NCBI RefSeq assembly: GCF_011602485.2
Contig: NZ_CP050022.2
Location: 7,794,281-7,858,280 of the forward strand
Length of the DNA stretch: 64,000 nt
From: Bradyrhizobium sp. 1(2017)
Lineage (GTDB): Bacteria; Pseudomonadota; Alphaproteobacteria; Rhizobiales; Xanthobacteraceae
Direction of reading: 5' to 3'
The stretch's first letter is position 1; each line of letters starts with the position of its first letter. The notes below the pieces were generated by a model. The model saw nothing but the letters and a program-made list of their open reading frames with translations. It had not been told where the DNA came from and did no database searches. Position numbers and translations under genes: made by a program. Positions 7,256 through 33,872 of this stretch are shown here, piece by piece.

Positions 7256-7329
7256 ATCACCGTTCTGCATCCTGGCATTTGCCGGTGACTGAGAGTGTTG
7301 CGCTCCCGCCTATGCGTAGGGAGGTATTC
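7256..7329 (+). promoter_or_regulatory. Candidate structured 5' leader (copy 1 of 7)
   Basis: TCACCG (7257-7262) pairs with CGGTGA (7283-7288), followed by CTGAGAG and then GCGCTCCCGCC, whose CTCCC (7303-7307) can pair with the Shine-Dalgarno GGGAG (7319-7323) seven bases before the ATG at 7330. The same order of elements occurs in front of six other genes in the window. Confidence 0.6.
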
Positions 7330-7575
7330 ATGGCCCAACCTCAAAGCCCGTCACCTGCCGTTGCACCGATCACAATCCAGCGCCCCCTCTGTCCAAGGTG
7401 CAAGGCTTCGATGATGCTCCTCAGCGTCGAGCCAGAGCGCCCAGGCGTGGACTTGCATAGGTTTCAGTGCGCACTCTGCAATGACGTACTTACGTTGCGT
7501 GCCGCCTACGAAGATCCTATGTGTTCCAGGTCCCTTGGCCGCTGGCTACAAGGCGATTTGCATCCACCGAAGTGA
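7330..7575 (+). CDS. Small zinc-ribbon protein
   Basis: This 81-residue protein has two Cys pairs, LCPRCKASM and FQCALCNDVL, spaced about 30 residues apart, the layout of a zinc ribbon. The start at 7330 is chosen over an ATG eighteen bases upstream because it has GGGAGG at the right distance. It carries the candidate leader described for 7256-7329. It could bind nucleic acid or protein; no specific role is known. Confidence 0.7.
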   Translation: MAQPQSPSPAVAPITIQRPLCPRCKASMMLLSVEPERPGVDLHRFQCALCNDVLTLRAAYEDPMCSRSLGRWLQGDLHPPK

Positions 7576-7848
7576 GGTCATGTAGTCCCCAAAAAAGCAG
7601 TTTCAGTCACGGGTTTGGCGCTGATCTGGGCCACGTCGGGAGCGACCCAAACAGCCGCGCAACAACAGGTGCAGCGCGATTTCACTCAGCTTTTCGGTGT
7701 ACCGAATCTCGACTTCGCGTCCCTGGCGGAACGAACACTGTCGGCGCGACTTGGTGAGGGGCGACCGGATGCATATGCCCCCAAGCATACGATGAAATGA
7801 CGGCCTCAGCGCGCCCCGCACGCCCTGGGGTCGTTTTTTGCGACGGGC
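7576..7848. other. Short gap; possible secreted-peptide relic
   Basis: One plus-strand frame to 7800 reads like a signal peptide and short tail (VTGLALIWATSGATQTAAQQ), but it lacks an ATG/GTG start with a ribosome-binding site (only TTG at 7615). I treat it as doubtful. A weak hairpin CCCC...GGGG followed by TTTTTT at about 7816-7839 may terminate plus-strand transcripts. Confidence 0.3.
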
Positions 7849-8528
7849 CTACTGATCTCGCTCTCTCAGCAGGGGCTTCTCATGCAAAACCGCGCTCAAT
7901 AGCGAATTGTGGACCTCGATGTGTCCATTATAGCTGATGAAGCCCAGCCTGCGAAACTTGTTCATGAATAGCTGACGCGGGATCGCGTGGTCCCGATCAT
8001 CTCCGCCAATGTTTCCTGACTAATGTTCGCGCTGATCGGCTGCGGATTGCCTTCCTTGCCGAAATTGGCGAGCAGCAACAGGAGTCGAGCAAGCCGCCGC
8101 TCGCTCGAATTGAAGAGCTGGTCGATCAGGTCCTCCTCAATCCGACTGTTCCGGGTCAGGAGATACGACATGAAGAGCTGTGAAAAGTTCGGCTCGTCAC
8201 GAATAGCCCCCATCATCGCGTCTTTGGTGATCGACGTGATGACGCAATCCTCCATCGTCGTTGTCGTCGCGATGCGTAACGGATGACCGTTCATGCATCC
8301 TTCGCCAAAGAATTGGCCGGGCTCCAGAATTGCGACAACCGCCTCCTTACCCTGCTCAGATACGACCGTTAGCTTCACTTTGCCTTTTTGAATGTAAAAC
8401 ACCGAGTCTGCGACATCGCCTTGCTGGAACACGCGCCGGTTCTTGGGAAGCTCGAGAATCGTTTTCCCCGCGCCCACTTTGGCGAGGAATTTTTTGGGGT
8501 CAAAGATGTCCTTGGTTGGCTTGGCCAC
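7849..8528 (-). pseudogene. Crp/Fnr-family regulator, frameshifted in the DNA-binding helix
   Basis: The first 188 residues hold a cyclic-nucleotide-binding-type domain (FQQGDVADSVFYIQKGKVKL, GQFFGEGCMNG), the dimer helix (NSRIEEDLIDQLFNSSERRLARLLLLL) and the start of the winged helix (ISQETLAEMIGTTRSRVS). One base is missing near 7965-7970. In the other frame the sequence continues FMNKFRRLGFISYNGHIEVH and runs to a TAG at 7849. The product therefore stops inside the recognition helix. The family usually activates stress or oxygen-response genes; this copy probably cannot bind DNA. No Cys cluster for iron-sulphur sensing is seen. Confidence 0.75.
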
Positions 8529-8940
8529 GAGAGCCTCCCCTGACTCACAAACTTGTCCGATCTCGGTTAACTGACAAACGCACAGGTATTTTGAACGAGT
8601 GGCGAGTGTTGTTTAGCCAGCTAATCGCTTGCGGCGCTAACCCCATTTTCAAACATTACCTGTTGATTTTCACCAGTTCTACAGAAAAGCCCGACTTTTG
8701 AGCGCGTCAGTTTGCTGCCCGCCGGGCGGCATCCGCCGGCAGTCCCGCAAACGCATCGAGCATAGGCTGCCACTCACCAGATCAGGCGACGGCCACGATC
8801 TGAACGTGAGCGCGGTTGACATGTTGAAGTGGACGGATATTGAAACCGGTAGGCCCTGCGTAACCTGCGGATGCTCGCCTCAACTCAACCCTGAGGTCGG
8901 GAGAGCGAGGCAGCTCGGGATTCCGAGTTTGATAGACGTC
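8529..8940. other. Gap with no gene
   Basis: Upstream region of the Crp/Fnr relic. No frame with a start signal is seen on either strand. Confidence 0.4.
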
Positions 8941-9155
8941 TTATGGGAGCGGCTCGCCGTCAGCCTGTCGTCTTTGCCGTACCGTTGGCCGTTTCGGTAT
9001 CAGCCATTCCTTCCTGTTTGCTGCGAGGCGAAGCTGCGCGGCGCTTCTGATGGCTTTGCATCGCATCGGGTAGCAACTTCTGCCTGTGCCAAAGCCTCGG
9101 ATGCCCGGGCAGCCCAATCGCGACGGTCGAGATCGTGCGGCGGTGAGTCTGTCAT
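8941..9155 (-). pseudogene. Small helical protein, frameshifted
   Basis: The frame starts MTDSPPHDLDRRDWAARASE ALAQA, then needs two frame changes to read on as AIRSAAQLRLAANRKEWLIPKR. The pieces fit a family of 50-70 residue helical Bradyrhizobium proteins of unknown role. As it stands the gene would give a 51-residue product with an unrelated tail. Confidence 0.35.
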
Positions 9156-9459
9156 TTCATCCTTGTTACTTTGGCTCTCACATCGCTGCACCATGAATCT
9201 GGATAAGGCGGAATAGCGATCGCACTCTCCTGTGCTCATGAATGCTGATGGTCGCGAGGTGACGCGGCAGTATGCTGGCTCGGCAGCTCAACGCGCAGGT
9301 CAATATTGCTCACTCTCGTGCCCTCTTATTTGTGCGCCGGGGCTCGTTATTTGAACCTTCGATCCCCATGTCTATCTAAGTCTGACGGTCCGGAGTGGCC
9401 GGAGATTTAAATCTCTGCAATACCGCGCAAAGGCAGCCGAGTACGAGGAACTGATTAAG
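9156..9459. other. Gap holding the lost N-terminus of the next gene
   Basis: From 9421 the frame of the following gene already reads like coding sequence (YRAKAAEYEELIK). An ATG at 9368 is out of frame with it, so the original start was probably lost by a frameshift near 9370-9410. Confidence 0.35.
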
Positions 9460-9900
9460 GTGTCGGCCGACCCGGATGAGATCCGTAGATTTCAAGAGCT
9501 GCAGAACCGATTTGCCTCGCTCGCCGATAACGCGCAAGGACTGGCGGGCGAGTATGACAATGCGGTGGCGGAACAGGGCCGATCGCACGGCGTAGCCTTT
9601 GCGGCCGAAGAAGAGCTTGTTCTGCGGTGTCTTGGCGCAGCTATCATCATGCAATGGAACGCTCCACCGACGACGTTGCAACGGGAAATCTTCGACACCG
9701 CCGGGTCGATTGGCAAATTGCTGGAGACGGCGGCGCTCCGCGGCCAAATCGCCCGATTTCTTCATAACCACAAGGATGACGCCGGTCACGGCAAATTGCC
9801 TCTAACAGAAGACATGCCTGCCGATGCAAGATCGAGCACTTTGGCTTTCTCTCGGTGGGACAACGAGGGAGGCGCAGTTCGCGACGCGCTGCCGATCTGA
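9460..9900 (+). CDS. Hypothetical helical protein, N-terminus damaged
   Basis: The frame encodes PDEIRRFQELQNRFASLADNAQ, a helical block common in short Bradyrhizobium proteins, and ends in PADARSSTLAFSRWDNEGG at 9900. Coding-like sequence begins earlier, at 9421, without a start codon, so only a GTG at 9460 is available. The gene may therefore be inactive. It is followed 26 bases later by another small gene. No function recognised. Confidence 0.4.
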   Translation: MSADPDEIRRFQELQNRFASLADNAQGLAGEYDNAVAEQGRSHGVAFAAEEELVLRCLGAAIIMQWNAPPTTLQREIFDTAGSIGKLLETAALRGQIARFLHNHKDDAGHGKLPLTEDMPADARSSTLAFSRWDNEGGAVRDALPI

Positions 9901-9926
9901 CCGGACGCCCATTACAGGAGGTTTCC

Positions 9927-10298
9927 ATGTCACTTACACAGTTTCGGGTCGATGACTGTCCACATACCATGGACGGGTTGCGGCTTCTTGCTCAGGATGC
10001 AAATCAACAGATCGAGGCGTTCATGAGCCGGAAAGTGATGGACATTTGGGCGGAGTCTGTGGAGCATCGTGGAGGACGACAAAGTCTATTTCGCGATCAA
10101 TACAACGCCCTTGGTAGACTGAACCTTGCCGCCCTTCAGCGGATTGTGAGCGCGAAATATCAGCGAGGCCCTGCATTCAACCGCCAACATCCCTTTGTCG
10201 AGATACTATTCTCTGACATTACGGAAAGCCGCGAGGCTCTAAATCTGAGTCAACTCGTGCGAGAAGCGTTGCCGCCAGCATTTCATAGGCTGGCCTGA
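9927..10298 (+). CDS. Hypothetical protein
   Basis: This 123-residue soluble protein (MSLTQFRVDDCPHTMDGLRLLAQDANQQIEAF...) has a strong AGGAGG seven bases before the ATG. The composition looks normal for a folded helical protein, with one Cys and no membrane segment. It lies 26 bases after the gene ending at 9900, so the two may be cotranscribed. I do not recognise the family. Confidence 0.6.
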   Translation: MSLTQFRVDDCPHTMDGLRLLAQDANQQIEAFMSRKVMDIWAESVEHRGGRQSLFRDQYNALGRLNLAALQRIVSAKYQRGPAFNRQHPFVEILFSDITESREALNLSQLVREALPPAFHRLA

Positions 10299-10353
10299 GA
10301 TCGATCTACACCACGAAAGTGCTGCCGACCAACAGGGGGATCGGTGGGCGGTT

Positions 10354-10539
10354 ATGGCGAAAGTCAAAACCTGCAAAACAAGAATAGCCGGAGTTTCTAC
10401 TCGACGAATCGCGAGATCGATAAGAAGAGCAATGAATCCGCCCACCGGTGAAGAGCGGAAGGAATGCAAGCGTCAACTGGCGGATCGACCGAATTGCGAA
10501 GGGCGCCTCGACCAGCCGAGGAGAGGGTGGTTAAGATGA
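10354..10539 (+). CDS. Doubtful small basic protein
   Basis: This 61-residue frame is rich in Arg and Lys and uses AGA/ATA codons unlike its neighbours. The ribosome-binding site is weak. It overlaps the next start by four bases. I list it as possible only. Confidence 0.25.
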   Translation: MAKVKTCKTRIAGVSTRRIARSIRRAMNPPTGEERKECKRQLADRPNCEGRLDQPRRGWLR

Positions 10540-10889
10540 TGATGCCAGCGAAAGCCGAGGCCCCACCTCTGCCTGTCTTCGTGCTGGAGATCGATGGTCA
10601 GCCAATTCTGGCGTTCAGAGCGGCGACGTTTCGTCAGGCCAGAGAACTCGGCAAGGAGGACTGGTTGCAAGAAGACTTGAAGCGAATGATGATTGGGTAC
10701 AGGCCGCTTTGGGATGGGAAGTCTCCGATCCGGGTGCGTCGGGCCGGCCCGGCAGAAGAAGTGTACTACGTTGACGCCAAAACGGAGAACGCTCCGGGCG
10801 ACTTGCCTTTGGTCTATCTGATCCAGCGCGACGATGAAATGGATACAACTGGTCCCGTTACTCGTGGATCATTTCCGCCCCGGAGATGA
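10536..10889 (+). CDS. Conserved small hypothetical protein
   Basis: This 117-residue protein contains VLEIDGQPILAFRAATFRQA, WLQEDLKRM, PLWDGKSPIRVRRA and LPLVYLIQRDD, a pattern I associate with a recurrent Bradyrhizobium family of unknown role. The start at 10536 follows GAGAGGG. Upstream in-frame starts would add a random-looking extension. Soluble; no catalytic motif is visible. Confidence 0.6.
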   Translation: MMMPAKAEAPPLPVFVLEIDGQPILAFRAATFRQARELGKEDWLQEDLKRMMIGYRPLWDGKSPIRVRRAGPAEEVYYVDAKTENAPGDLPLVYLIQRDDEMDTTGPVTRGSFPPRR

Positions 10890-11004
10890 GCTCGAACTGA
10901 CACCTTATCGGTGGACTGTGTCAGATTGGTAGACGAGCGAACCGGGACCTGCTGCAGTGATGGATCCTTCAAACGACCTCCTCAGTTAGGCCGTGTACTC
11001 ATCT

Positions 11005-12360
11005 GTGGACGCCCCGCCAGATGCAAGCGGTTTTTGAAGAAGATTGGCACGTAGTCGGATGCTGCCATCTGTCCGGCCTCTGATGCAGCGATGGAGCTGC
11101 GGGCCCGTATGGGAGTTCGCGGACCGGAACCAAATCATAAATGCGTGCTCTGGGCACGATGAGTACATCTGGTTCTTCCGGCCCCGTCTCGCCGACTGTT
11201 GCGCCATACTCTCCTTCGACCGACTGCACCTGCGACGACCTCAGGCCCGCCAGGCTCACGCCATGGCCGCGACCGGAGCTCTGTAGTTTTCCTGCTTTAC
11301 AAGCAGCGCCCAGACGATCCGCGCCATCTTGTTCGCGAGCGCCACGGTTACCAGCATGCGCGGTTTGCGTGCCAGCATCTGCTCGAGCCACGAACCTCTT
11401 GGCGCGCCCCGTTTGCTCGCCTGCTGCACGACGGCGCTGCTGCCGATGATGAGGAGGCGCCTGAGCGTGCGTTCGCCCATTTTGGACGTCGCGCCAAGCT
11501 TCTGTTTGCCACCCGTCGATCGTTGAAGAGGCGTAAGCCCCAGCCAGGCGGCAAAGTCGCGGCCCTTGGCGAAGGTCTCGATCGGCGGCGCTAGGGCGGC
11601 GATCGCTGTGGCGGAGATCGGGCCGATGCCAGGAACGGTCATCAGCCTGCGCGATACTTCGTCCTCGCGAGCACGTCGCGCGATTTCCTGGTCGAGGTCC
11701 GCGACCTTGCCATTGAGGTCGGTCAGCAGGTCCAACATCAATCGGAACATGGCGTGGGCCGCTTTGGGGAGCGAGCTGGCCATCTCTTCTTCCTCGATCA
11801 GGTCGGTAAGCATCGTCACGTGCGACGGCCCCTTAGGTGCGACCCATCCATATTCAGTGAGGTGTCCCCGGATCGCGTTGATGAGCTGCGTTCGCTGCCG
11901 CACTAACAGGTCACGGGTCCGAAACACCAGACCCGCCGCCTGTTGCTGTTCGCTCTTCACGGCCACGAACCGCATGCTCGGCCGCTGCGCTGCTTCGCAG
12001 ATCGCCTCGGCATCGATCGCGTCATTCTTTTGCCGCTTCACAAACGGCTTTACGTAGGCGGGAGGGATCAGCCGAACTTCATGGCCAAGCTGGGTCAGTT
12101 GACGGGCCCAGTGATGCGCTCCGCCACATGCCTCCAGAGCTACCGTGCAACTCGGCTGAGCTGCGAAGAAATCCAGCAGCTTTCCTCGGCTGATCCGTTT
12201 GCTGAATATTGCTCGCCCTTTCCCGTCTGCTCCATGAGCGTGGAAAACATGCTTGGCGATATCCAGACCGATTATGATAACCTCTGACACGGACGCCTCC
12301 CTTAAGTGGTGCTCAACACCTCCACTTTGGCACATCGATGCCGTCGGGCGGGGCGTCCAC
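11005..12360 (-). mobile_element. IS1111-type IS110-family insertion sequence
   Basis: A perfect 14-base inverted repeat, GTGGACGCCCCGCC at 11005-11018 and its complement at 12347-12360, flanks a single transposase gene. Such sub-terminal inverted repeats mark the IS1111 group of IS110; the true ends should lie a few bases further out. Confidence 0.8.
11256..12290 (-). CDS. IS110/IS1111 transposase
   Basis: This 344-residue transposase has the RuvC-like N-terminal domain starting IIIGLDIAKHVF, with further acidic residues in VALEACGG and KNDAIDAEAICEA (the DEDD set). The C-terminal transposase_20 domain follows, with the LMTVPGIGPISATAIAA helix-hairpin-helix, GLTPLQRSTGGKQKLG and the conserved Ser near LIIGSSAVV. 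The start is GTG at 12290, which gives the usual length; longer in-frame starts run into the terminal repeat. The frame looks intact, so the element may be active. Confidence 0.85.
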   Translation of the reverse strand: MSEVIIIGLDIAKHVFHAHGADGKGRAIFSKRISRGKLLDFFAAQPSCTVALEACGGAHHWARQLTQLGHEVRLIPPAYVKPFVKRQKNDAIDAEAICEAAQRPSMRFVAVKSEQQQAAGLVFRTRDLLVRQRTQLINAIRGHLTEYGWVAPKGPSHVTMLTDLIEEEEMASSLPKAAHAMFRLMLDLLTDLNGKVADLDQEIARRAREDEVSRRLMTVPGIGPISATAIAALAPPIETFAKGRDFAAWLGLTPLQRSTGGKQKLGATSKMGERTLRRLLIIGSSAVVQQASKRGAPRGSWLEQMLARKPRMLVTVALANKMARIVWALLVKQENYRAPVAAMA

Positions 12361-12438
12361 CCCATCATAAATCAGAGCGCTTGCGTCAGGACGTCTGAAG
12401 TCCGCTTGCGAGACGACAGCAGAGCAACAGGCGGACGT

Positions 12439-12639
12439 TTACTGACTCTCGGAGGATGGGTCGGACTGACTCGAAGCTGGGTCAGCTTTGTACCGGCCCA
12501 ACAGGATGGATGGATCAGACTCCGCCAAAACCTTTTTTGCGAATCTGATAAACTCCCGGGCGCGTTCGATCTCATCGCGATCATAGTCGCGTGGTCGAAA
12601 AATCGGGATTTGAGGCGCCGGGCGAGGTTTTTCGGGCAT
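12439..12639 (-). CDS. Small hypothetical protein
   Basis: This 66-residue protein (MPEKPRPAPQIPIFRPRD...) has a helical block EIERAREFIRFAKKVLAESDPSILLG and a polar serine-rich tail. It lies 39 bases downstream of the gene at 12679-12855 on the same strand, so the two may form an operon under the leader at 12856-12940. Function unknown. Confidence 0.55.
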   Translation of the reverse strand: MPEKPRPAPQIPIFRPRDYDRDEIERAREFIRFAKKVLAESDPSILLGRYKADPASSQSDPSSESQ

Positions 12640-12678
12640 GGGTCGTCGAGCCGTGACCGAATGGGAAACGCAGAAAAG

Positions 12679-12855
12679 CTATTTAGGTTTCTTTATTTCA
12701 CGGAGGAAGGCAAGACGGATTTCCTGGCGGTGCCGGGTCCTCTCGCATTGCGCCATCATCTCTTTGCGCTGTTCAGCAAGGTCACGACTGCGGGCAATCG
12801 CCCGGTCGGCAGCATCCAATAATTCCTGGGTTTCCAGGCTAAACGCGTCAACCAT
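12679..12855 (-). CDS. Small helical protein under the candidate leader
   Basis: This 58-residue protein (MVDAFSLETQELLDAADRAI...) is predicted to be a helical hairpin with charged surface. The start at 12855 is preferred because GGAGC lies just upstream and because the conserved leader ends there. No function is recognised. Confidence 0.6.
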   Translation of the reverse strand: MVDAFSLETQELLDAADRAIARSRDLAEQRKEMMAQCERTRHRQEIRLAFLREIKKPK

Positions 12856-12940
12856 CGCGTGCTCCTTCTGCGTATGCAGGCGGGAGCGCAATCGGTCTCT
12901 CGGCCACCGACGCCTACGGGCAGAGCCGAAGCCGGTGATG
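12856..12940 (-). promoter_or_regulatory. Candidate structured 5' leader (copy 2 of 7)
   Basis: Read on the minus strand: TCACCG (12938-12933), then CGGTGG (12909-12904), CCGAGAG, GCGCTCCCGCC, and GGAGC (12865-12861) as ribosome-binding site. GCTCC (12887-12883) and GGAGC form a 5-bp stem. The upstream stem has one mismatch relative to the other copies. Confidence 0.55.
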
Positions 12941-13023
12941 GCGAGACAATATACCGTTTGCCAGAGGGTTCCTAGCTCGGATTAGAATGGTCCGGTTCCA
13001 GTCGTCATTTGGCCGGCCAGGTT

Positions 13024-16934: not shown

Positions 16935-16976
16935 TATGCGGCTCCTCGGGCTGGACGTAAGGATCTGACCGTCGCG

Positions 16977-18542: not shown

Positions 18543-18695
18543 CTAAGTCCGGATAGGGCGCTGCGCCTTCGGGCATCGCTTGCATCCCGGGAAATCAAAC
18601 GCGCAGAACTCCTCGTCTGAAAGCGCGCCTGCCGCCAGTTCGAAGCGGCACCACAACGCGACGGGTTGAAATTTAGCGGGCTGAATGTCGGGCAT
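18543..18695 (-). CDS. Possible small cysteine-containing protein
   Basis: This 50-residue frame (MPDIQPAKFQPVALWCRFELAA...) has GAAGAG before its ATG and four cysteines, one pair as CKRC. It overlaps nothing else. Weakly supported. Confidence 0.35.
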   Translation of the reverse strand: MPDIQPAKFQPVALWCRFELAAGALSDEEFCAFDFPGCKRCPKAQRPIRT

Positions 18696-18872
18696 GATGC
18701 TCTTCCCAAGACCAAATGGGAGCAACACGCTCCCACTCACCGATGGATGCCGAGAATGCAGCGGTGATGAGGATATCGTGCCGCAGTGCAGTTCGAGCTT
18801 ATGGTCAAAGTTGCTCATTCACGACAAATTAATGGACGGGATTTTGCCATCCCGAAGCTCCATTGCGTCGCG

Positions 18873-22880: not shown

Positions 22881-22982
22881 CTACAGAATAGCCACAACCG
22901 CAATCAGCAGTGCGAGGAAGACCGGCACCAATAGCGGCGGCACAAGCCACTCACGGATTTCGAATTTGTCGGATTTTGACAT
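22881..22982 (-). CDS. Single-TM micro-protein under the candidate leader
   Basis: This 33-residue peptide has a charged N-terminus (MSKSDKFEIREW) followed by one hydrophobic helix (LVPPLLVPVFLALLIAVVAIL). It is homologous to the 32-residue peptide at 33000-33098 (SEW-IVPPVIVPLFLLLLVCAAAIL): both have EW-x-VPP-xx-VP and the same leader. It probably sits in the inner membrane, with its N-terminus in the cytosol. AGGCGG lies four bases before the ATG. No function is known. Confidence 0.65.
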   Translation of the reverse strand: MSKSDKFEIREWLVPPLLVPVFLALLIAVVAIL

Positions 22983-23060
22983 CTTACCGCCTTCACTGGG
23001 TTGAGGCGGGAGCGCAAAGCTCTCAGTCACCGATAACAGCCACGAAGCGCGCGGTGATGC
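22983..23060 (-). promoter_or_regulatory. Candidate structured 5' leader (copy 3 of 7)
   Basis: On the minus strand: TCACCG (23057-23052), CGGTGA (23032-23027) with CTGAGAG, then GCGCTCCCGCCT. Here CCGCCT (23009-23004) pairs over 6 bp with the ribosome-binding site AGGCGG (22992-22987). The register differs from the other copies but the result is the same, a hidden ribosome-binding site. Confidence 0.6.
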
Positions 23061-25987: not shown

Positions 25988-26071
25988 GATCACCGGCCGA
26001 GGCTTGTCCCGTAGGCGTCGGTGACTGAGAGACCGAGAGCGCTCCCGCCTGCACGGAACTGGAGTGCTCTT
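25988..26071 (+). promoter_or_regulatory. Candidate structured 5' leader (copy 4 of 7)
   Basis: TCACCG (25990-25995) and CGGTGA (26019-26024) form the first stem, followed by CTGAGAG. AGAGCGCTCC (26036-26045) can pair with GGAGTGCTCT (26061-26070) over ten positions with one G-U pair, which buries the ribosome-binding site and reaches to within one base of the ATG. It is the longest ribosome-binding-site stem of the seven copies. Confidence 0.65.
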
Positions 26072-26308
26072 ATGGAACGCTATTTCTTTGACATCCAGAG
26101 TGGCCGCGAGTTTTTCGCCGACGAGGAAGGACAACGACTGCCCAATCAGAAGGCTGCTGAAGTTGAAGCGATGCAAACGCTGACCGGGATCGCCAGAGAG
26201 TCCGTGTTCAAAGGCAGTCGTCCAGATTTGGCGGTGGAAGTGCGCTCGATGACTGAACGGCTTTTCTGCGTATCGATCGTCTATCGAAGTGAGAGCACCA
26301 AACATTGA
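26072..26308 (+). CDS. DUF6894-like small protein (1 of 3)
   Basis: This 78-residue protein starts MERYFFDIQSGREFFADEEG and continues KAAEVEAMQTLTGIARES and DLAVEVRSM. The RYFFDI...DEEG...A..EA...L..+AR...A+EVR pattern is shared with 26788-27027 and 33553-33798. I associate it with the DUF6894 family. The start at 26072 is the only one after the leader. A beta-alpha-beta fold is likely; role unknown. Confidence 0.7.
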   Translation: MERYFFDIQSGREFFADEEGQRLPNQKAAEVEAMQTLTGIARESVFKGSRPDLAVEVRSMTERLFCVSIVYRSESTKH

Positions 26309-26447
26309 GGCTGCCTGTGAGAACAGACACCTCCATCTCGACTGGGTCTCCCGCTCCAGTTGGAGTACTCGACTAGCCGTGAGGCTGTCCAAAAACATTT
26401 CTTCAATCATGTCTGGTCGGAGTGCCTTCGCGCACATATGTTGGGGT

Positions 26448-26523
26448 CGTCACCGCCCCACCCGAGGCAACCATCGGTGATGAGAACGCCTGTCGCGCTC
26501 CCGCCCATTCAAGGGAGAAAGCC
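26448..26523 (+). promoter_or_regulatory. Candidate structured 5' leader (copy 5 of 7)
   Basis: TCACCG (26450-26455) and CGGTGA (26475-26480) form the first stem. CTCCC (26498-26502), inside GCGCTCCCGCCC, can pair with the ribosome-binding site GGGAG (26513-26517). CTGAGAG is changed to TGAGAAC here. Confidence 0.55.
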
Positions 26524-26721
26524 GTGCAGGTTCGTAGCGAGTCTCAATCTTCGACATTCGAATACCGTCTCACTCAAGAGGCGATCAATTTGCGCCAGCA
26601 GGCTCAAGGAATGCCTGTTTGCGTCCGGCTCGCCGAACTACTTCAGAAGGCCCGGCAGATCGATGTTGCCCTGGAGGTGAACAGGTGGCTCAGTTCTCCG
26701 GGACTTCAGCCGCCAATGTAA
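26524..26721 (+). CDS. Small helical protein under the candidate leader
   Basis: This 65-residue protein with a GTG start is placed by GGGAGA seven bases upstream. Its core LTQEAINLRQQAQGMPVCVR and ending KARQIDVALEVNRWLSSPGL QPPM match the protein at 25612-25812. The two paralogues flank a DUF6894-like gene. No function known. Confidence 0.6.
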   Translation: MQVRSESQSSTFEYRLTQEAINLRQQAQGMPVCVRLAELLQKARQIDVALEVNRWLSSPGLQPPM

Positions 26722-26787
26722 TTTGAAGGCCTGGACCTGCTTTCGGGCCTCTCGCGCTGGCGCAGACATCTTTCCAACAGGGCGCTC

Positions 26788-27027
26788 ATGATGATCCGAT
26801 ATTTCTTCGATATCAGAGACGATCGGGAGCTCTACCCGGACGAAGACGGAATAGAGTTTTCAACGCAACGTGAGGCCGAGATGGAGGCGGCTCACACATT
26901 GGCGGGATTGGCCCGCGATTTGGTGGGTCAGGAAGACCGGCCGGACGTTGCTATCGAGGTTCGAACGGAAGCCGGGCACGTATTTCAAGCTGCATTGACC
27001 TTCGAGGCCAATAAAGCCGGTCAATAG
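26788..27027 (+). CDS. DUF6894-like small protein (2 of 3)
   Basis: This 79-residue paralogue (MMIRYFFDIRDDRELYPDED) has EAEMEAAHTLAGLARDL and DVAIEVRTEAGHVF. Unlike the other two family members here, it does not show the conserved leader. The start may be ATG 26788 or 26791. Confidence 0.7.
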   Translation: MMIRYFFDIRDDRELYPDEDGIEFSTQREAEMEAAHTLAGLARDLVGQEDRPDVAIEVRTEAGHVFQAALTFEANKAGQ

Positions 27028-27086
27028 GGGGTTTGTCGCGGTTCCGCGGGCTCGACATGGACTGTCGCATTGCAGCCCTCTTGCGA

Positions 27087-27896: not shown

Positions 27897-28120
27897 GGAA
27901 GTAGCTCCAAAGAGATGATTGCGATCGTCGCGAAACCCGTTTGGGCATCGTCACCGATGAAGGCTGCGAGCGCTCGGGTGTGAACAGTATGCCATCGCAG
28001 TCCCGACCGCCAGCCGTATGCTCGATTGCGTTGAGAACATCCGCCCAGCGCCTGACGGGAACCCGTTCAAACTGAAGGCATTGTTGAAGGAAGATGAAAA
28101 TCCGATCCGGAGTCGCGCCC

Positions 28121-28291
28121 ATGTCCGTTCAACCGGCGCAAGACTGGCGGGCACAGCCTGTATCCAAGAAGGCCTCCTACCAGGGCGCGTGTCGCACTGT
28201 GGGCGAGGCCGATGCTGACATTCTGAGGAAGCGCGCGTTGAAGAGGCAACGTGCGCTGATCGACACCCTCAATGGTCGTGCGCCATCATGA
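28121..28291 (+). CDS. Small basic protein coupled to the metallopeptidase
   Basis: This 56-residue protein (MSVQPAQDWRAQPVSKKASY...) ends ILRKRALKRQRALIDTLNGR APS. Its TGA stop overlaps the ATG of the next gene as ATGA, which implies translational coupling. GGAGT lies seven bases before its start. It may be a partner or inhibitor of the metallopeptidase, but that is inference from position only. Confidence 0.6.
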   Translation: MSVQPAQDWRAQPVSKKASYQGACRTVGEADADILRKRALKRQRALIDTLNGRAPS

Positions 28292-29295
28292 GAGATTTCA
28301 AATGTCCTCATTGCGGGCAGCTATCGGCGTTCGAGCTCTCCAAATGCAACGGCTGCATGCAGCCGTTGATCTTCGATCCCGAGAACATGGCAATGATCGG
28401 TGCGGAAAGTGCCCTTGTATGCGTCAACCGGAATATCATCGGTTGCAACTGGTGCGCGGTTGCGACGACTCCCTACTGCATGTCCTGCTCCCTGACTCAT
28501 GTCATTCCCGCCACGCAGAATCCGCGTAACGTAGCCCTTTGGAAGCGCGTGGAGGAAGCCAAGCGCAGGCTGATCTACGACCTGCGACGGCTCCGCGTGC
28601 CCATCGTGTTCGCGGGTGGATTTCGTCTGGCATTCGAGATTCTGTCGGACGAGCATGGGCCGGTCATGACCGGTCACGAATCCGGCCTGATAACGCTCAA
28701 TCTTGCGGAGGCCGACGATGTGCAGCGCGAGATCAGGCGCGTTTCCTTTCGCGAACCCTATCGCACCCTGCTTGGTCACTTTCGACACGAAATAGGGCAC
28801 TTTTACTGGAATGCCCTGATCTACGAAGCGGGCTTTCGAGCGCCGTTTCGGCTGGTGTTTGGCGACGAGACCGAGAACTACCAAGCTGCGCTTGCCGACT
28901 ATTATGCCCGTCAAGATTGGTCTTGCGATCCGGCGAGTCACATCAGCATGTATGCGACATCTCATCCCTGGGAAGATTGGGCAGAGACTTTCGCTCACTT
29001 CCTGCACATCGTCTCGACCTTGGATTCCCTGGCAGGACTTCCGTTGTCGTTGGACGCGCGCGGGAAGCACACGCTGAACGACCCGTATCTGGAAAGCGAT
29101 TTCGGTGCGCTCCTTGAGTTATGGACCCCGCTCGCTCTGACGATCAACCGCCTCAACCGCTCACTTGGTCTTGCCGACGCGTACCCGTTCGACATTTCAC
29201 CCGCAGTCGAGGGCAAGCTACACTTGGTGCATATGGCGATTACCGCCTTCAGGAATCGGCAAGGAAACGCGCACACAACGCAGATGATGTGCTAA
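28288..29295 (+). CDS. Zinc-binding metallopeptidase family protein
   Basis: This 335-residue protein has an N-terminal zinc ribbon (FKCPHCGQL, KCNGCMQP, then CNWC and YCMSC) and a gluzincin-type catalytic site LLGHFRHEIGHFYWNALI with the HExxH motif. A downstream DETENYQAALADYY and DWAETFAHFLHIV region could supply the third ligand. It fits the family annotated as putative zinc-binding metallo-peptidase. No signal peptide, so the site of action is the cytosol. It is coupled by ATGA overlap to the small protein at 28121-28291. Confidence 0.85.
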   Translation: MRDFKCPHCGQLSAFELSKCNGCMQPLIFDPENMAMIGAESALVCVNRNIIGCNWCAVATTPYCMSCSLTHVIPATQNPRNVALWKRVEEAKRRLIYDLRRLRVPIVFAGGFRLAFEILSDEHGPVMTGHESGLITLNLAEADDVQREIRRVSFREPYRTLLGHFRHEIGHFYWNALIYEAGFRAPFRLVFGDETENYQAALADYYARQDWSCDPASHISMYATSHPWEDWAETFAHFLHIVSTLDSLAGLPLSLDARGKHTLNDPYLESDFGALLELWTPLALTINRLNRSLGLADAYPFDISPAVEGKLHLVHMAITAFRNRQGNAHTTQMMC

Positions 29296-29605
29296 CTGAA
29301 TTCCGGTCGAAGCGCTTAGCTCGTGAGCAGCGCCACACCTGGTTGGGATTTTAGCTGAACGTCTGGCAGACGAGCGGCGGCGTGGGCTTCGGTTCGCCAC
29401 TCGGGAACCTGCGTCCTGCGAAAGCGTTGATAACCATAGGCAGCGTCCGCTTGCCGTCGTTTCGGCAACGCGCTGGGCCCTCGCGAAAGATCTGGCGCGA
29501 AGCGGAGCGTTCACGCTTATCCGCTCCCGGGCGAATATCTCTTGGGGCCGCCATGGCGACTATCCGAGCTCCAGACCGGCGCTGATCCAATTTCTGGAGA
29601 TCAAA
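29296..29605. other. Gap with degenerate coding-like sequence
   Basis: One frame near 29346-29400 reads LAERLADERRRGLRF and may be the remnant of a small charged protein. The promoter and leader of the next gene occupy the end. Nothing firmer can be said. Confidence 0.35.
29569..29599 (+). promoter_or_regulatory. Hairpin covering a ribosome-binding site
   Basis: CTCCAGA (29569-29575) is perfectly complementary to TCTGGAG (29593-29599), which contains the ribosome-binding site of the gene starting at 29606. The upstream TCACCG stem of the seven-copy leader is missing, so this is a separate, simpler device. Confidence 0.5.
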
Positions 29606-29791
29606 ATGATGAAAAACGAAGCGAAGGCTGCCCGGCATCTGCGGGAGGCGAACAACGCGTTCAAAGCGGTGCGGACAGAAAAACCAATGACCGATTACGC
29701 GAAAGATCAGCAATCCCTGCACGACAATCACGAGCGCCTGAAGGCGGCCCGATTGGCGCGTGAAGCCAAGCCGAAAGACGGCCAGGCATAA
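29606..29791 (+). CDS. Small charged helical protein
   Basis: This 61-residue protein (MMKNEAKAARHLREANNAFK...) contains NHERLKAARLAREAKPKD, similar in style to the charged families at 6859-7092 and 29868-30317. TCTGGAG precedes the start and is locked in a hairpin. A strong palindrome follows the stop. Function unknown. Confidence 0.6.
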   Translation: MMKNEAKAARHLREANNAFKAVRTEKPMTDYAKDQQSLHDNHERLKAARLAREAKPKDGQA

Positions 29792-29830
29792 TCGTCGCTC
29801 TCGATTTAGAGCATCGAGAGCACGACGATT
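29790..29830. terminator. Large hairpin between convergent genes
   Basis: AATCGTCG + CTCTCGAT (29790-29805) and ATCGAGAG + CGACGATT (29813-29830, with CA between the two parts) form a 16-bp stem with a two-base bulge around TTAGAGC. It lies at the meeting point of the plus gene ending 29791 and the minus gene ending 29806. No T-run, so bidirectional termination is inferred from structure and position. Confidence 0.6.
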
Positions 29831-30021
29831 CCGTTTTCGAGCTCGCCGGAGGCGAGCCGCGCACGGGCTATATGCTCGAATTCTTTTCGATATTTGTGGA
29901 GATAACTGAAGGCCTGCTTGTCAGTCTGAAACGTCGTCGTAAGCCTGCACATCTGTCGTGCTGCGCCAAGCGCAAGCATGAAAGTGATCGTTCCCCCGCC
30001 GTCTGCTTTGACTCTAGGCAT
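29806..30021 (-). CDS. Small hypothetical protein
   Basis: This 71-residue protein (MPRVKADGGGTITFMLALGA...) has RLTTTFQTDKQAFSYLHKYRKEF and ends ELENGIVVLSML. This beta-helix-beta layout is recurrent in Bradyrhizobium. Its start lies inside the 3' part of the gene at 29868-30317 (other frame, same strand). Function unknown. Confidence 0.65.
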   Translation of the reverse strand: MPRVKADGGGTITFMLALGAARQMCRLTTTFQTDKQAFSYLHKYRKEFEHIARARLASGELENGIVVLSML

Positions 30022-30317
30022 CCACCCTGCTCGTGTAATTCGGTTTCACGATGATGCCGTGTGATCGCGAGTTCGACTATCGCACCGACCTGTTTTTGCG
30101 TTTCGTCGGTGCGGGCGCAGGCAGCGATGCCGCGAAACGCGGTGTCGGCAACTTCCTTGGCCTCACGCAGCTCGCGGAGGCGCGCCATGTTCTTTCGCAC
30201 CTCGATGGCCTGCCGTTCCGCGTCAGCCAATGCCCGCGCGCCGTCTTCAGCAGCCAATCGCTTGCGGTTCGAGCGCGCGATGCCTTCGGGCGACGGCTCT
30301 GCCGATTTCCTGGCCAT
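29868..30317 (-). CDS. Charged helical protein with run-on C-terminus
   Basis: The first 60 or so residues (SPEGIARSNRKRLAAEDGAR, RKNMARLRELREAKEVAD) match the family at 6859-7092. The remaining 85 residues lack family character and overlap the start of the next gene by about 150 bases in another frame. I think the natural stop was lost and the frame runs on. Start at ATG 30317. Confidence 0.5.
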   Translation of the reverse strand: MARKSAEPSPEGIARSNRKRLAAEDGARALADAERQAIEVRKNMARLRELREAKEVADTAFRGIAACARTDETQKQVGAIVELAITRHHRETELHEQGGCLESKQTAGERSLSCLRLAQHDRCAGLRRRFRLTSRPSVISTNIEKNSSI

Positions 30318-30343
30318 CATCCTCAACCCGCATTAGGATAAAC

Positions 30344-30373
30344 AAAACCCGCTCCATCCGAAGATCGAGCGGG
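30344..30373 (-). terminator. Rho-independent terminator of cspA
   Basis: CCCGCTC (30348-30354) and GAGCGGG (30367-30373) form a perfect 7-bp stem. On the minus strand the hairpin is followed by TTTTGTTT. It lies 44 bases after the cspA stop codon. Confidence 0.75.
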
Positions 30374-30416
30374 CAGCGTGCCGTTTCAGTACATCCGTGA
30401 AAACGGCGTCGACAAA

Positions 30417-30626
30417 TCAAGCCAGCGAGAGGTTTTCGGCGCTCACTTTGCCGCGCATCTTGTCGGTCTTGACCTCAAAGCTGACCTTTTGGCCCTCGGC
30501 GAGACCCGCAAGGCCAGCCCGTTCGACCGCGCTGATATGAACGAACACATCATTGGTGCCGTCGGTCGGTTGGATAAATCCAAAGCCTTTTTGGCCGTTG
30601 AACCACTTAACAGTGCCTGTCGTCAT
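30417..30626 (-). CDS. cspA: Cold-shock protein
   Basis: This 69-residue single cold-shock domain binds single-stranded RNA and DNA. RNP1 is KGFGFIQ and RNP2 is DVFVHIS, within [18 protein letters not shown]. The length is standard. GGAGA lies six bases before the ATG. The upstream region contains the palindrome TGATATATATCA at 30755-30766, which would fit the AT-rich promoter or long leader usual for these genes. A terminator follows. Confidence 0.92.
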
Positions 30627-31076
30627 TTTCGTTCTCCAAGGCGCACGAGCGCGTACCGCGTGACAATCACGCGATTGCTTCAACTTCGTCGATGTCTTTG
30701 GAAAAGGAGCCCGCGGGCGCGTTCAACAAGGCACAGCGGCTAATCGAATTTCTCTGATATATATCATTTTCGGCTTTTTGCAAGGCAACACTCAAAATTG
30801 TTTCCGAGAGCGCTGCTACTCGAGCGCGTTTGGGCGAACGTTCCTTTGCGATCGAGGGGCTCCAAACGACGTGTGGGAACGGCTCTATCCATTGACAGCG
30901 CGGCTTACAGTAGTCACGTTGCTCTACCGAACTTGATTGCCGTGACGCATAGACCGGCTTGTTCGAGGCCGGCGGAAGAAGACGCCGTCACTCCCATCAT
31001 CACAATCGCCACGAGACTCCTGCGCAATTGGCTGCATGCAGGAATTGCGCATTCGCAGCCCAGCGAGGAATTTCAA
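30627..31076. other. Intergenic region between cspA and the S21-like gene
   Basis: It holds the divergent control regions of cspA (minus) and the S21 gene (plus), with the 12-base palindrome TGATATATATCA at 30755-30766. The open plus-strand frame continuous with the S21 gene does not read like ribosomal protein before 31077. Confidence 0.5.
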
Positions 31077-31355
31077 TTGCAGGTACTTGTTCGCGACAAC
31101 AATGTCGACCAGGCCCTTCGTGTTCTGAAGAAGAAGATGCAACGCGAGGGTGTCTTTCGCGAAATGAAGCAGCGGCGCTCATACGAAAAGCCTTCGGAAA
31201 GAAAGACGCGCGAAAAATCCGAGGCTATTCGCCGGGCCCGTAAGCTCGCTCGGAAGCAGGCCATCAGGGAAGGTTTGCTGCCGGCGTCCCCCAAGAAGAA
31301 GCTTCCAGAGCGCAAGCCGCCGTTGCCGCAGATCGCCGGCAAGGAACGCGCGTAA
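31077..31355 (+). CDS. rpsU: Ribosomal protein S21 with TTG start
   Basis: This 92-residue small-subunit protein has the core [30 protein letters not shown]...[12 protein letters not shown], then a basic helix [18 protein letters not shown] and a lysine/proline tail [14 protein letters not shown]. The S21 family starts at M-QVLVRDNN, which here corresponds to TTG at 31077, with GAGGA upstream. Longer in-frame starts add unrelated residues. Bradyrhizobium carries more than one S21 copy; whether this one is the main copy cannot be told. It lies divergent to cspA. Confidence 0.85.
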
Positions 31356-31489
31356 CGGGAATGCCGCGCGTAGAGGAACGTTGTTGCTATAGATTCATTG
31401 CCATGGTGGTTGCGCCGGGTTCGACGCAGCGAAAGCCAGGGTCCGTAGCTGCCAAATTCCAGTCGCGGTCTCTAATCCAGGAGATTGAG

Positions 31490-31693
31490 ATGGCGAAGAC
31501 GGATACGAGTGATCATCGCATTCTGGTCCAACGCGCGCGTGCCGCCCACCTGGCTGGCAAAGCCATAGACGAGAGGGCGGACAATTCTGCGAATGGCGAT
31601 GATCAAGCGATGCGAAGGCAGCGTTTGATCGAGGGACCATCAGAATTCAGGGCCGCCCGAGTCGATCGTTCAAGAAAGGCTCTTGATCGTTGA
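31490..31693 (+). CDS. Small charged protein, paralogue of 22048-22260
   Basis: This 67-residue protein (MAKTDTSDHRILVQRARAAH...) ends MRRQRLIEGPSEFRAARVDR S, matching the protein at 22048-22260. GGAG lies seven bases upstream of the ATG. Function unknown. Confidence 0.6.
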   Translation: MAKTDTSDHRILVQRARAAHLAGKAIDERADNSANGDDQAMRRQRLIEGPSEFRAARVDRSRKALDR

Positions 31694-31853
31694 CTGGCTA
31701 TCAGTCGCTTACGGGTTCCTTGCGACTTCCGGAACGCGTTGACATTGTCTTGAGCATCGGCCTGTCCGTCTCTGCTCGGCGAGTTATGGGGCGGCGGGGT
31801 CAACTTGTTAAGAATTCGCCTAAGCGGCTCCAGTATCACGACGTGGCAAGTTG

Positions 31854-32132
31854 TTAGGTTCTGAAATCGATGCCACGCAACACGATGCCCCGTGGATCGC
31901 CTTCAAGTTCCGTCGCTCGATACTTGCTGGCCGCGCGGGCCTCGATGCGGTCGCGTAGGCGGATGAACTGAGCTTCGCGCTGCTCGGGGCGGACCTGCGG
32001 GCCGCGCTCGAGATAGTCCATCGCGGTGGTCGAGATCGCGCAGGGAATTTCCTTACCGCCGTCCTGCATCGAGAACAGTACGATCATCCGGTCATATTCG
32101 TGGCCGATGTAGCGACCGCTCGTGAGCGTCAT
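31854..32132 (-). CDS. DUF1488-like protein
   Basis: This 92-residue protein (MTLTSGRYIGHEYDRMIVLF...) has CAISTTAMDYLERG and helical FIRLRDRIEARAASKYR, which matches the shape of DUF1488 proteins. GAGGA precedes the ATG. It is the last of three closely spaced minus-strand genes (32743 to 31854). No function is established for the family. Confidence 0.7.
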   Translation of the reverse strand: MTLTSGRYIGHEYDRMIVLFSMQDGGKEIPCAISTTAMDYLERGPQVRPEQREAQFIRLRDRIEARAASKYRATELEGDPRGIVLRGIDFRT

Positions 32133-32193
32133 GGTTTCCTCCTTTACGCGATGGTTGCTGGCACGATCGCGCGTGCGGAAAGTTGCTCTGCCG

Positions 32194-32490
32194 TCAGCCC
32201 TCGCCGGAGAGCCGAACGAAGTCGTCGAGCAACGCCGCCACCAGCGCCCGATGCCTCGTATCCTCGGCAGGCAGGCTCGCGGCATAGAGGTTGAGCAGAT
32301 GCCGCGCCTTGACGGCCGCCTCCGGCCAGGAGGCGGCGGGCACCGTCATCATGCGATGTTCAAGCTCGGCCTCCCGCTCGCGCAATTCCCTGACATGGGC
32401 CTCGACCTCGGCCAGCGCGCGGCGCAGATCGGTAGCCTTCTGCGCAGCCATCCCGCGATGCTTGTCGAGATCGACGGGATGGTCAGTCAT
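32194..32490 (-). CDS. Helical coiled protein
   Basis: This 98-residue protein (MTDHPVDLDKHRGMAAQKAT...) has a coiled-coil stretch LRRALAEVEAHVRELREREAELEH (residues about 18-43) and a second helix. Its start overlaps the end of the preceding gene by eight bases, so the two are coupled. No function known. Confidence 0.65.
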   Translation of the reverse strand: MTDHPVDLDKHRGMAAQKATDLRRALAEVEAHVRELREREAELEHRMMTVPAASWPEAAVKARHLLNLYAASLPAEDTRHRALVAALLDDFVRLSGEG

Positions 32491-32743
32491 GGCTCGCATC
32501 CGCAGCCTGCGCATTGGCAAGGTCGACCGAGCCGATCGAGAGCATCTCCATGGAGTCGCGAACGCCTTCGGCGGGCACCATGATCATCGTAGCGACGCGT
32601 CGATAGGCCGAGAAGGTGAGACCCTCGATTGTCTCTTCATCGGTGACGACCTCGTAGGCGCCGGCGGGCAGCACTCGCTCGATGCCGCGGATTCGGAACG
32701 GATGTCTGAACGTGACGGTCTCTCGCCGTGAGCGGATGGTCAT
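32483..32743 (-). CDS. Small hypothetical beta protein
   Basis: This 86-residue protein (MTIRSRRETVTFRHPFRIRG...) has RVLPAGAYEVVTDEETIEGLTF, a beta-rich pattern common in uncharacterised Rhizobiales proteins. It is the first gene of the three-gene set ending with DUF1488. Role unknown. Confidence 0.65.
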   Translation of the reverse strand: MTIRSRRETVTFRHPFRIRGIERVLPAGAYEVVTDEETIEGLTFSAYRRVATMIMVPAEGVRDSMEMLSIGSVDLANAQAADASHD

Positions 32744-32919
32744 GCACGCCTGCCTTTTTTGCAAGAGGGCCCCTGACCGACCGACAGCAACGACCATGCG
32801 CTCATCATTGAGCAATAGCCAGCACATTCGTCATTCCCGCGCGCTGACGCCGCAGTGCAGCCTTGCCCGAACTGCGTTTTAGTACTCGCTATTGGTGCCT
32901 CGCAGGCGTAGGTTTGTCG

Positions 32920-32999
32920 CATCACCGCTCTTCTCAACGGCATCGACCGGTGACTGAGGGTCACGTGCGCTCCCGCCGACGGAGTTGCAGGAGCGCTCG
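32920..32999 (+). promoter_or_regulatory. Candidate structured 5' leader (copy 6 of 7)
   Basis: TCACCG (32922-32927) and CGGTGA (32948-32953) form the first stem, followed by CTGAGGG. GCGCTCC (32967-32973) is perfectly complementary over 7 bp to GGAGCGC (32990-32996), the ribosome-binding site of the ATG at 33000. Confidence 0.65.
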
Positions 33000-33098
33000 A
33001 TGTCGCGTTTTCGCGCCTCGGAATGGATCGTCCCGCCGGTGATCGTTCCGTTATTCCTTTTGCTTCTGGTGTGTGCTGCGGCCATCCTCAATGGCTAG
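33000..33098 (+). CDS. Single-TM micro-protein under the candidate leader
   Basis: This 32-residue peptide is MSRFRASEWIVPPVIVPLF followed by LLLLVCAAAILNG. It is homologous to the peptide at 22881-22982 and has the same leader. One membrane helix, charged cytosolic start. The next gene begins inside it (ATG at 33091, another frame), so the two are translationally coupled. Function unknown. Confidence 0.7.
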   Translation: MSRFRASEWIVPPVIVPLFLLLLVCAAAILNG

Positions 33099-33438
33099 GG
33101 CAAAGCGCGTGCCTTACCTGGTCACGGGAACCAACGAATATGGCAGCGCAAATCTCGGGCGCGGCAGCGCGACCGTTGCACTGCGGCTCGCGCGAAAGCT
33201 GCTGCGTGACGGCTACATGGATGTCCGCGTCTGTACGCCGCGCGGGCGCATCCTGCAGTCGGACGAACCGAATGAACTTGAATTCCAACGGGAGATGGAC
33301 GTCATGGCCAAGGGACAGCAACGCGGCAATCGCGAAGCCAAGAAGCCGAAGAAGGAAAAAGCCAAGGTGATCGCGGCACAGCCCAGCCGGAAAGAGGTCG
33401 TCTGGCAGCCGGATTTCGGGTCTGCGAAAAAGAGGTAG
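33091..33438 (+). CDS. Two small-protein families joined in one frame
   Basis: Residues 1-65 (MARAKRVPYLVTGTNEYGSA...) contain LRLARKLLRDGYMDVRVCTPRGRIL, a small beta-alpha family. Residues from the ATG at 33304 (MAKGQQRGNREAKKPKKEKA...) form a lysine-rich unit that I have seen as an independent protein. The internal ATG has GGGAG at nine bases, so a separate 44-residue product is also likely. The first start overlaps the micro-protein at 33000-33098. Confidence 0.55.
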   Translation: MARAKRVPYLVTGTNEYGSANLGRGSATVALRLARKLLRDGYMDVRVCTPRGRILQSDEPNELEFQREMDVMAKGQQRGNREAKKPKKEKAKVIAAQPSRKEVVWQPDFGSAKKR

Positions 33439-33552
33439 GCGGCGCAGTCAAGCGTGAGGCGGACGCTTGACCGCTATTGCGGCGCGACGAGGGGCCACCT
33501 CATGGATGCTCGAAGGTGGATCGAGGAGCAACGCCGGGACCCACAAGCCGTG

Positions 33553-33798
33553 TCACTGTTGCCGCCCTCCGTCCCCAAATTCGAACCCGACATGCATCAC
33601 GGGACCGGCGTCGTCCCGTACCTCAATTGCCAAATGGCGCTTTGAAGAGCTGCCAGAGTCATACGTCGCATCCCGTGCCATGTCGGCCAATGACTTTGCC
33701 GCCTCAACCTGCACCGCCCGAAAGTCCGAAAGTTCCAGACCTTCCTCGTCAAGGAACAGGCCGTCATCGTCGACGAGATCGAAGTAGTACCGGGTCAT
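33553..33798 (-). CDS. DUF6894-like small protein (3 of 3)
   Basis: This 81-residue protein (MTRYYFDLVDDDGLFLDEEG) has VQVEAAKSLADMARDA and HLAIEVRDDAGPVMHV. It is paralogous to 26072-26308 and 26788-27027. GGAGC precedes the ATG inside the leader stem. Role unknown. Confidence 0.7.
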   Translation of the reverse strand: MTRYYFDLVDDDGLFLDEEGLELSDFRAVQVEAAKSLADMARDATYDSGSSSKRHLAIEVRDDAGPVMHVGFEFGDGGRQQ

Positions 33799-33872
33799 GA
33801 CGCGCTCCGGAGACAGACGGGAGCTCCATGTGTCAGCGACCGATGCCCCTTGTGCAGCCTCGATCGGTGATG
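33799..33872 (-). promoter_or_regulatory. Candidate structured 5' leader (copy 7 of 7)
   Basis: On the minus strand: TCACCGAT (33870-33863), then ATCGGT (33844-33839), a spacer with GCTGACAC in place of GACTGAGAG, and GCTCC (33824-33820), which pairs with the ribosome-binding site GGAGC (33808-33804). It is the most diverged copy, but the two stems are kept by compensating sequence. Confidence 0.5.

Follow-up and report, generated by a model that had tools for sequence, protein, structure and literature searches.

A short RNA leader stands directly before eight genes in a 64,000-nucleotide (nt) stretch of the Bradyrhizobium sp. 1(2017) chromosome (contig NZ_CP050022.2, positions 7,794,281 to 7,858,280; hereafter the window), and it recurs in every genome of the genus that was searched, mostly before genes for small proteins. 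It consists of a 5' hairpin, a nearly invariant CNGAGAG, a short spacer, and a nearly invariant GYGCUCCCGCC, in that order, with loop and spacer varying in length. Its position before genes, its register with an upstream promoter, covariation in its hairpin, and selected complementarity between GYGCUCCCGCC and the ribosome-binding site (RBS) were all established by computation. The best explanation, to which we assign a probability of roughly 60%, is a 5'-terminal cis-regulatory RNA family in which the RBS would be masked by default and freed by a trans-acting factor that recognizes the invariant core. Our verdict is that this is a new family of a known general kind, the leaders that mask a Shine-Dalgarno sequence.

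An earlier note on this DNA had described seven copies. All are present where it placed them, to within two bases at the 5' end; each runs up to the base just before a start codon, and TCACCG is found in all seven. The 13-mer CGGTGACTGAGAG, which the note gave as a shared part, held in its exact form for only three copies (7283, 23032 and 26019); in the other four it has one mismatch (32948), has two (12909), is one base short (26475), or is degenerate (33842). Taken alone and with up to three mismatches, this 13-mer is not above chance in the window, with 23 matches against 21.48 expected. The 7.86 Mb genome holds CTGAGAG-N2-16-GCTCCCGC, in this order, at 20 places and the same pattern reversed at none. 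Nineteen of the 20 coincide with copies found by a covariance model; the twentieth, at 4767636, lacks the stem and was judged a chance match. The model was built from 24 copies of this genome and covers the core only, from ATC to CCGCC, so start codons and ribosome-binding sites remain independent tests of what it finds. In this chromosome it marks 34 places at E <= 1e-3, namely the 24 training copies and 10 others. In the window a covariance model finds an eighth copy (copy 3 of Table 1).

In 182 loci collected for comparison there are 243 model matches (two batches, 142 and 101), 226 of them distinct. An open reading frame (ORF) of at least 30 amino acids (aa), or one still open where the DNA read ends, begins 8-50 nt past the core in 214 of the 226. 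An ATG opening such a frame of at least 30 aa lies 12-29 nt past the core in 189 of 226 copies; at a position 250 nt farther along, the count is 35 of 213. Nine of the 12 copies without a frame have an ATG at 17-23 nt followed by a shorter frame. Another is truncated where the DNA ends, and of the last two, one lacks a start codon where it would be expected and the other lacks one altogether. For this genome, 33 of 36 matches at E <= 0.01 are followed by such a frame, of 32-105 aa. The products bear out the link with small proteins that the earlier note had drawn: 194 of 214 are no longer than 100 aa and 89 no longer than 60 aa, while 13 exceed 150 aa.

These 214 products fall into 40 single-linkage clusters (BLAST E <= 1e-3). 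The largest holds helical proteins of about 66 aa (44 members), followed by single-transmembrane-like proteins of 31-38 aa (40), zinc-ribbon-like proteins (36, with Pfam zinc-ribbon matches below cut-off), DUF6894 proteins identified by Pfam (16), and proteins with a cyclic-nucleotide-binding domain (11); an alpha-CTD-like cluster (4) rests on a weak match, and many further small clusters make up the remainder. In the alpha-CTD-like case, some leaders precede proteins of 70-82 aa resembling the RNA polymerase alpha C-terminal domain (CTD): the protein after L183:5684-5737(+) has a weak Pfam match, at 20.3 bits against a cut-off of 23.8, and by eye similar proteins follow L109:1130-1186(+) and L140:4595-4649(+).

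Compensatory changes indicate that the 5' hairpin is real. Within the genus the stem is UCACCG/CGGUGA; elsewhere other sequences take its place, including TCGCTGA/TCAGCGA, TCGTCG/CGACGG and TCGGCG/CGCCGA, in remote copies that still keep ATC, CTGAGAG or CCGAGAG, and GCTCCCGCC. Over 134 distinct rows, all six stem pairs vary on both sides, giving 18 cells against 1.7 in shuffles that ignore relatedness, a number reached by none of 500. Sliding the 3' strand by one to three columns in the same rows lowers pairing from 98.2% to 18.5-67.8%. A set drawn mostly from model matches, and so partly independent of the pattern scan, shows variation in four of the six pairs (12 cells against 2.5), and a set enriched in remote copies gives 21 cells against 5.4 (0 of 500 shuffles); the four pairs that vary in this last set are equalled in 43 of 500 shuffles. 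A covariation scan over all pairs of columns was not used beyond the stem; in it subtype structure dominates, and the tail is misplaced in part of the rows.

The element is probably the 5' end of the messenger RNA, with transcription starting at the A of ATC. When 162 non-redundant upstream regions are aligned on that A, a -10-like pattern appears, with T at 0.35 in position -12, A at 0.47 in -11 and T at 0.48 in -7, together with C at 0.59 in -1. Among 207 of 322 rows, those left after upstream regions more than 72% alike were dropped, TAnnnT starting at -13 to -11 is found in 54, against 4 at a control place; G[GA]AAC at -37 to -30 in 31, against 3; and TCG[CA] at -37 to -34 in 53, against 13. 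Two kinds of promoter in the same register therefore both point to one first base of the element. In the window and related loci the two types extend from about -42 to -7 relative to the first A: one is EcfG-like, with GGAAC...CGTT, which we take to be the EcfG consensus, and the other has a TCGCTAT/TCGAC box near -35 with TAnnnT at -12. The extracytoplasmic-function (ECF) sigma motifs in the excerpts of PMC3420878 do not resemble the TCGCTAT box. Some upstream regions carry, by eye, a palindrome-like TATGTCG-N6-CGACATA, which is perhaps a regulator site.

Masking of the RBS by the leader's anti-Shine-Dalgarno is well supported by sequence. For 182 of 227 non-redundant leaders (those with an ATG at least 16 nt past the core), the predicted pairing of each leader's GCUCCCGCC with the stretch ahead of its ATG has a median energy of -9.8 kcal/mol, compared with -4.8 kcal/mol for 650 starts of long ORFs, some of them surely wrong starts. 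After correction for complementarity to 16S rRNA, an excess of 1.47 kcal/mol remains (p 9e-14). Most telling is the C after GGAG: about 74 of 114 GGAG sites in leaders continue as GGAGC, against about 22 of 74 in controls (counts derived from fractions). The RBS is thus complementary to an upstream leader segment beyond what ordinary sites show, which is the general mark of a Shine-Dalgarno-masking 5' leader. Ensemble folding of 215 leaders gives the site a mean pairing probability of 0.71, with at least two pairs to the anti-Shine-Dalgarno in 178. The earlier note went too far in holding that the site is always paired: by our own reading of minimum-energy folds, it is clearly paired with the anti-Shine-Dalgarno in six of the eight window copies.

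The core is more conserved than masking would seem to demand. In 88 copies lying outside the exact-pattern scan (90 minus two that are short or gapped), CUCCCGCC is 91-99% invariant by position, and GAGAG is 91-98% invariant in the 79 that lack a one-base deletion. Figures that include the exact-pattern stretches are biased, and the set of 88 omits those stretches; its percentages are nonetheless upper bounds, because it retains loci of this genome located by the 13-mer with up to one mismatch and because the model favors consensus-like copies. Of 50 copies in which the RBS pairs with CUCC alone, 44 retain CGCC, as do 32 of the 35 others. Since masking alone would not need CGCC in the former, its retention suggests a second, sequence-specific state. 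Likewise, the anti-Shine-Dalgarno is nearly invariant while the RBS need only complement it, so something else must also read the core. That second state would contain the anti-Shine-Dalgarno without the RBS and would be mutually exclusive with masking; recognition should therefore unmask translation. A subtype with CGGTGATGAGAACGCC in place of CGGTGACTGAGAG, seen in window copy 26449-26505(+) and in nine copies of the conservation set, often precedes the helical family of 60-66 aa.

In the mechanism we propose, transcription would begin at the A of ATC, and the first 50-60 nt would form the hairpin followed by CNGAGAG, the spacer and GYGCUCCCGCC. The last of these, acting as anti-Shine-Dalgarno, would pair with the RBS a few bases on and keep translation of a mostly small-protein gene off. 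A trans-acting factor, either an RNA-binding protein or a small RNA, would bind the stem base, GAGAG and CUCCCGCC and so free the RBS, releasing the whole regulon together. Three parts of this scheme we infer from the sequence comparisons above: lower translation in the cell as the effect of masking, an activating role for the factor, and its action in trans. A fuller version, to which we give slightly less than an even chance, sees one class of 5' RNA switch with a universal anti-Shine-Dalgarno and a single trans factor or ligand, co-releasing tens of unrelated small genes with RpoD-like and EcfG-like promoters; any small gene could join by acquiring the leader.

Several results weigh against this account. 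The first 24 rows gave no significant signal of stem covariation, and the model to which later alignments were fitted already holds the stem, so that they lean towards it. Folding of the window copies is not clearly better than that of shuffles (z from -0.16 to -2.04), and the minimum-energy structure contains the 5' hairpin in only two of the eight. The earlier note had read changes of pairing register from copy to copy as selection on structure; no specificity of each leader for its own RBS was found, since own and swapped sites differ by 0.16 kcal/mol on average, a difference reached by 175 of 2000 permutations (125 leaders). That swapping hardly matters points to one invariant anti-Shine-Dalgarno with many adapted sites rather than to copy-by-copy co-evolution. 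One search for an antisense partner of the core, by exact 11-mer complement of GCGCTCCCGCC, gave 30 places against 41 for the reversed control, with 14 of the 30 being the antisense strand of copies themselves and 16 lying outside the element; the search for a partner perfect over these 11 bases showed nothing beyond chance. Two models of the second state formed in cis also failed. A four-segment switch, with GGUG of the stem and CGCC of the anti-Shine-Dalgarno pairing in the ON state, shows no covariation, and the pairing is lost in remote copies with a changed stem. A local CUGAGAG:CUCCC hairpin as the ON state is predicted, but spacers are not fitted to it: over 176 of 227 leaders the observed mean of -3.69 kcal/mol is weaker than all 200 spacer permutations (mean -3.83), so that local structure across the spacer is, if anything, slightly weaker than permuted. 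Pairing of the loop's GGC with the anti-Shine-Dalgarno's GCC in a pseudoknot, considered by eye, offered nothing to test, because GCC hardly varies. With partners in cis unsupported, a trans-acting protein or RNA is favored, and a ligand-binding aptamer is the main rival.

In that rival, a riboswitch for a metabolite or an ion, a small aptamer would be made up of the stem base, CNGAGAG and GYGCUCCCGCC, and ligand binding would capture or release the anti-Shine-Dalgarno with no trans factor. Invariant bases around a covarying stem do look aptamer-like, and the recognized part includes the anti-Shine-Dalgarno. We consider it unlikely all the same, as up to 41 matches per genome precede 40 protein clusters among which no common pathway was seen, no conserved second stem was found, and there is no Rfam match: in Rfam 15, no family reaches its gathering score in the window, two matches at E <= 1 in positions 1-40000 lie away from every copy, and neither ROSE nor the known riboswitch classes gave a covariance-model match at the copies.

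Less probable again is a leader for mRNA stability or processing, whose primary transcript would stay untranslated until a nuclease cuts off the 5' part, as some type I toxin mRNAs require. A 5'-terminal stem, strong masking, and many tiny membrane-like products would suit such a leader, but many targets are not toxin-like (zinc-ribbon-like, DUF6894 and cyclic-nucleotide-binding-domain proteins), and cleavage upstream of the anti-Shine-Dalgarno would leave the site masked.

The two remaining explanations are disfavored. The earlier note's idea of an RNA-level leader before mostly small-protein genes stands, but the thermometer it listed among the possibilities is not supported. Bradyrhizobium is known for ROSE thermometers, 5' leaders that mask the RBS much as this element does, and an element of that kind is nonetheless very improbable here, because predicted masking hardly changes between 20 C and 55 C (site pairing 0.72 and 0.70 in the first 120 of 215 leaders), with the lack of an Rfam match besides. 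A DNA operator, or a plain mobile repeat lying before genes by happenstance, has as little to recommend it: copies do cluster, one two-copy stretch is duplicated, and five viral contigs carry the pattern, one of them near portal and terminase genes, but the stem changes are compensatory, loop and spacer vary in length, the phase to promoter and start codon is fixed, and flanks diverge (207 of 322 rows survived the filter on similarity). Elements like repetitive extragenic palindromes (REP) should show no link to start codons and conservation of the whole unit, whereas here loop and flanks diverge and 189 of 226 copies have the ATG in place. As far as computation can tell, none of the outcomes that the earlier note had named as fatal (absent covariation, no connection with start codons, a repeat or operator) was observed.

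Window leaders are 73-84 nt long (Table 1). The earlier note had called the downstream proteins unrelated. Its seven genes represent five families, as the two transmembrane microproteins match each other (E 7e-7) and so do the two DUF6894 proteins (E 3e-11), which Pfam assigns to that family; all eight window genes form six clusters. In the degenerate copy 3, GTGGGAG occupies the position of CTGAGAG and GCTCCCATT that of the anti-Shine-Dalgarno; the two together would make a perfect local hairpin, GUGGGAGC/GCUCCCAU, and the RBS of its 50-aa gene is not paired with the anti-Shine-Dalgarno.

Table 1. The eight leader copies of the window and the genes that follow them (positions within the window).
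Copy	Leader	Strand	Core	Downstream gene	Remarks	E
1	7256..7329	+	7256-7310	zinc-ribbon-like, 81 aa, 7330-7575	RBS GGGAGG	9.5e-14
2	12856..12939	-	12879-12939	58 aa, 12679-12855(-)	upstream GGAAC box	1.8e-11
3	18696..18768	-	18715-18768	50 aa, 18543-18695(-)	degenerate; absent from the earlier note; anti-Shine-Dalgarno GCTCCCATT	1.7e-6
4	22983..23058	-	23005-23058	transmembrane-like, 33 aa, 22881-22982(-)	RBS AAGGCGG	6.3e-15
5	25989..26071	+	25989-26049	DUF6894, 26072-26308		2.8e-12
6	26449..26523	+	26449-26505	helical, 65 aa, 26524-26721 (GTG start)	one-base-short subtype (CGGTGATGAGA)	4.6e-10
7	32921..32999	+	32921-32977	transmembrane-like, 32 aa, 33000-33098	GGAGCGC pairs with GCGCTCC	1.2e-11
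8	33799..33871	-	33816-33871	DUF6894, 33553-33798(-)	degenerate	3.6e-6

The 34 copies of the chromosome lie in two groups, 16 at 7.768-7.828 Mb (the window included) and 12 at 7.284-7.300 Mb, with 6 elsewhere. A duplicated stretch with two identical leader copies in each unit, about 14 kb apart, is found at about 7.285 and 7.299 Mb (L009:10034-10389 and L010:4253-4608). The model was run on 60 relatives, counting this genome, and 39 of them gave a match at E <= 0.1. Every one of the 36 genomes of the genus is among these, with between 1 and 41 matches per genome and a weakest best match of E 0.0013; the other three, out of 24 genomes from other families, match weakly (E 0.007-0.05). Across the family, 82 of 149 genomes, representing 30 of 47 genera, have matches at E <= 1e-3; sixteen copies, each the sole match of its genome there, likewise precede various small proteins. 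A second model, from 127 copies, was used beyond the family and matched 11 of 199 genomes of the order (this genome, five of the genus, and five of other families) and 4 of 190 of the class (this genome and three others). An exact-pattern scan of named genomes gave at least 120 stretches; among the 80 matches listed, Bradyrhizobium accounts for the majority, and the others include Afipia, Nitrobacter, Rhodopseudomonas, Tardiphaga, Microvirga, and several metagenome bins, some labeled far outside the class. One of the viral contigs, from IMG/VR, combines a leader copy at L204:965-1019(-) with genes for portal and terminase at L204:2190-6013; prophages may be a vehicle for the leader.

Comparison with known systems brings out what is distinctive. 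ROSE elements, for which curated models exist in Rfam, are likewise 5' leaders that mask the RBS in the same genus; the leader described here differs in lacking an Rfam match, in predicted masking that is not temperature-sensitive, and in having various small proteins as targets, with no small heat-shock protein seen by eye among the 40 clusters. Riboswitches of the SAM-II-like, translational-OFF kind also combine a compact leader and anti-Shine-Dalgarno with an invariant core, whereas this one recurs tens of times per genome, ahead of small genes that are unrelated to one another, and has no Rfam match. The duf1127-1 gene of Sinorhizobium meliloti is another rhizobial small-protein gene under leader control; according to the excerpts of PMC12218461, that leader is 279 nt long, with an upstream ORF and premature termination, as against 73-84 nt in the window. 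Br-REP1 and Br-REP2 of B. japonicum are likewise repeated elements of Bradyrhizobium but differ in position and consensus, being described in the excerpts of PMC5082802 as palindromes in 3' untranslated regions and intergenic regions. In the excerpts of that paper on small ORFs, non-coding RNAs and repeats, and of the B. japonicum transcription start site map (PMC4842269), other elements are described, not this leader. Searches of open-licence papers by topic, and by motif letters among the matches listed (best 30 of 261), found no description of it, and DUF6894 is not mentioned in the open-licence literature searched. What we judge unusual in the leader is its copy number, its place almost only before small-protein genes, and its invariant anti-Shine-Dalgarno core.

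For most bacterial small proteins, to our knowledge, neither function nor regulation has been worked out. Marking as many as about 40 sites in a genome, the leader can be used to predict which of the tiny ORFs are true genes and to gather these into one putative regulon, and its invariant core offers a bait for the regulator. Masking by default might also make such small proteins hard to detect.

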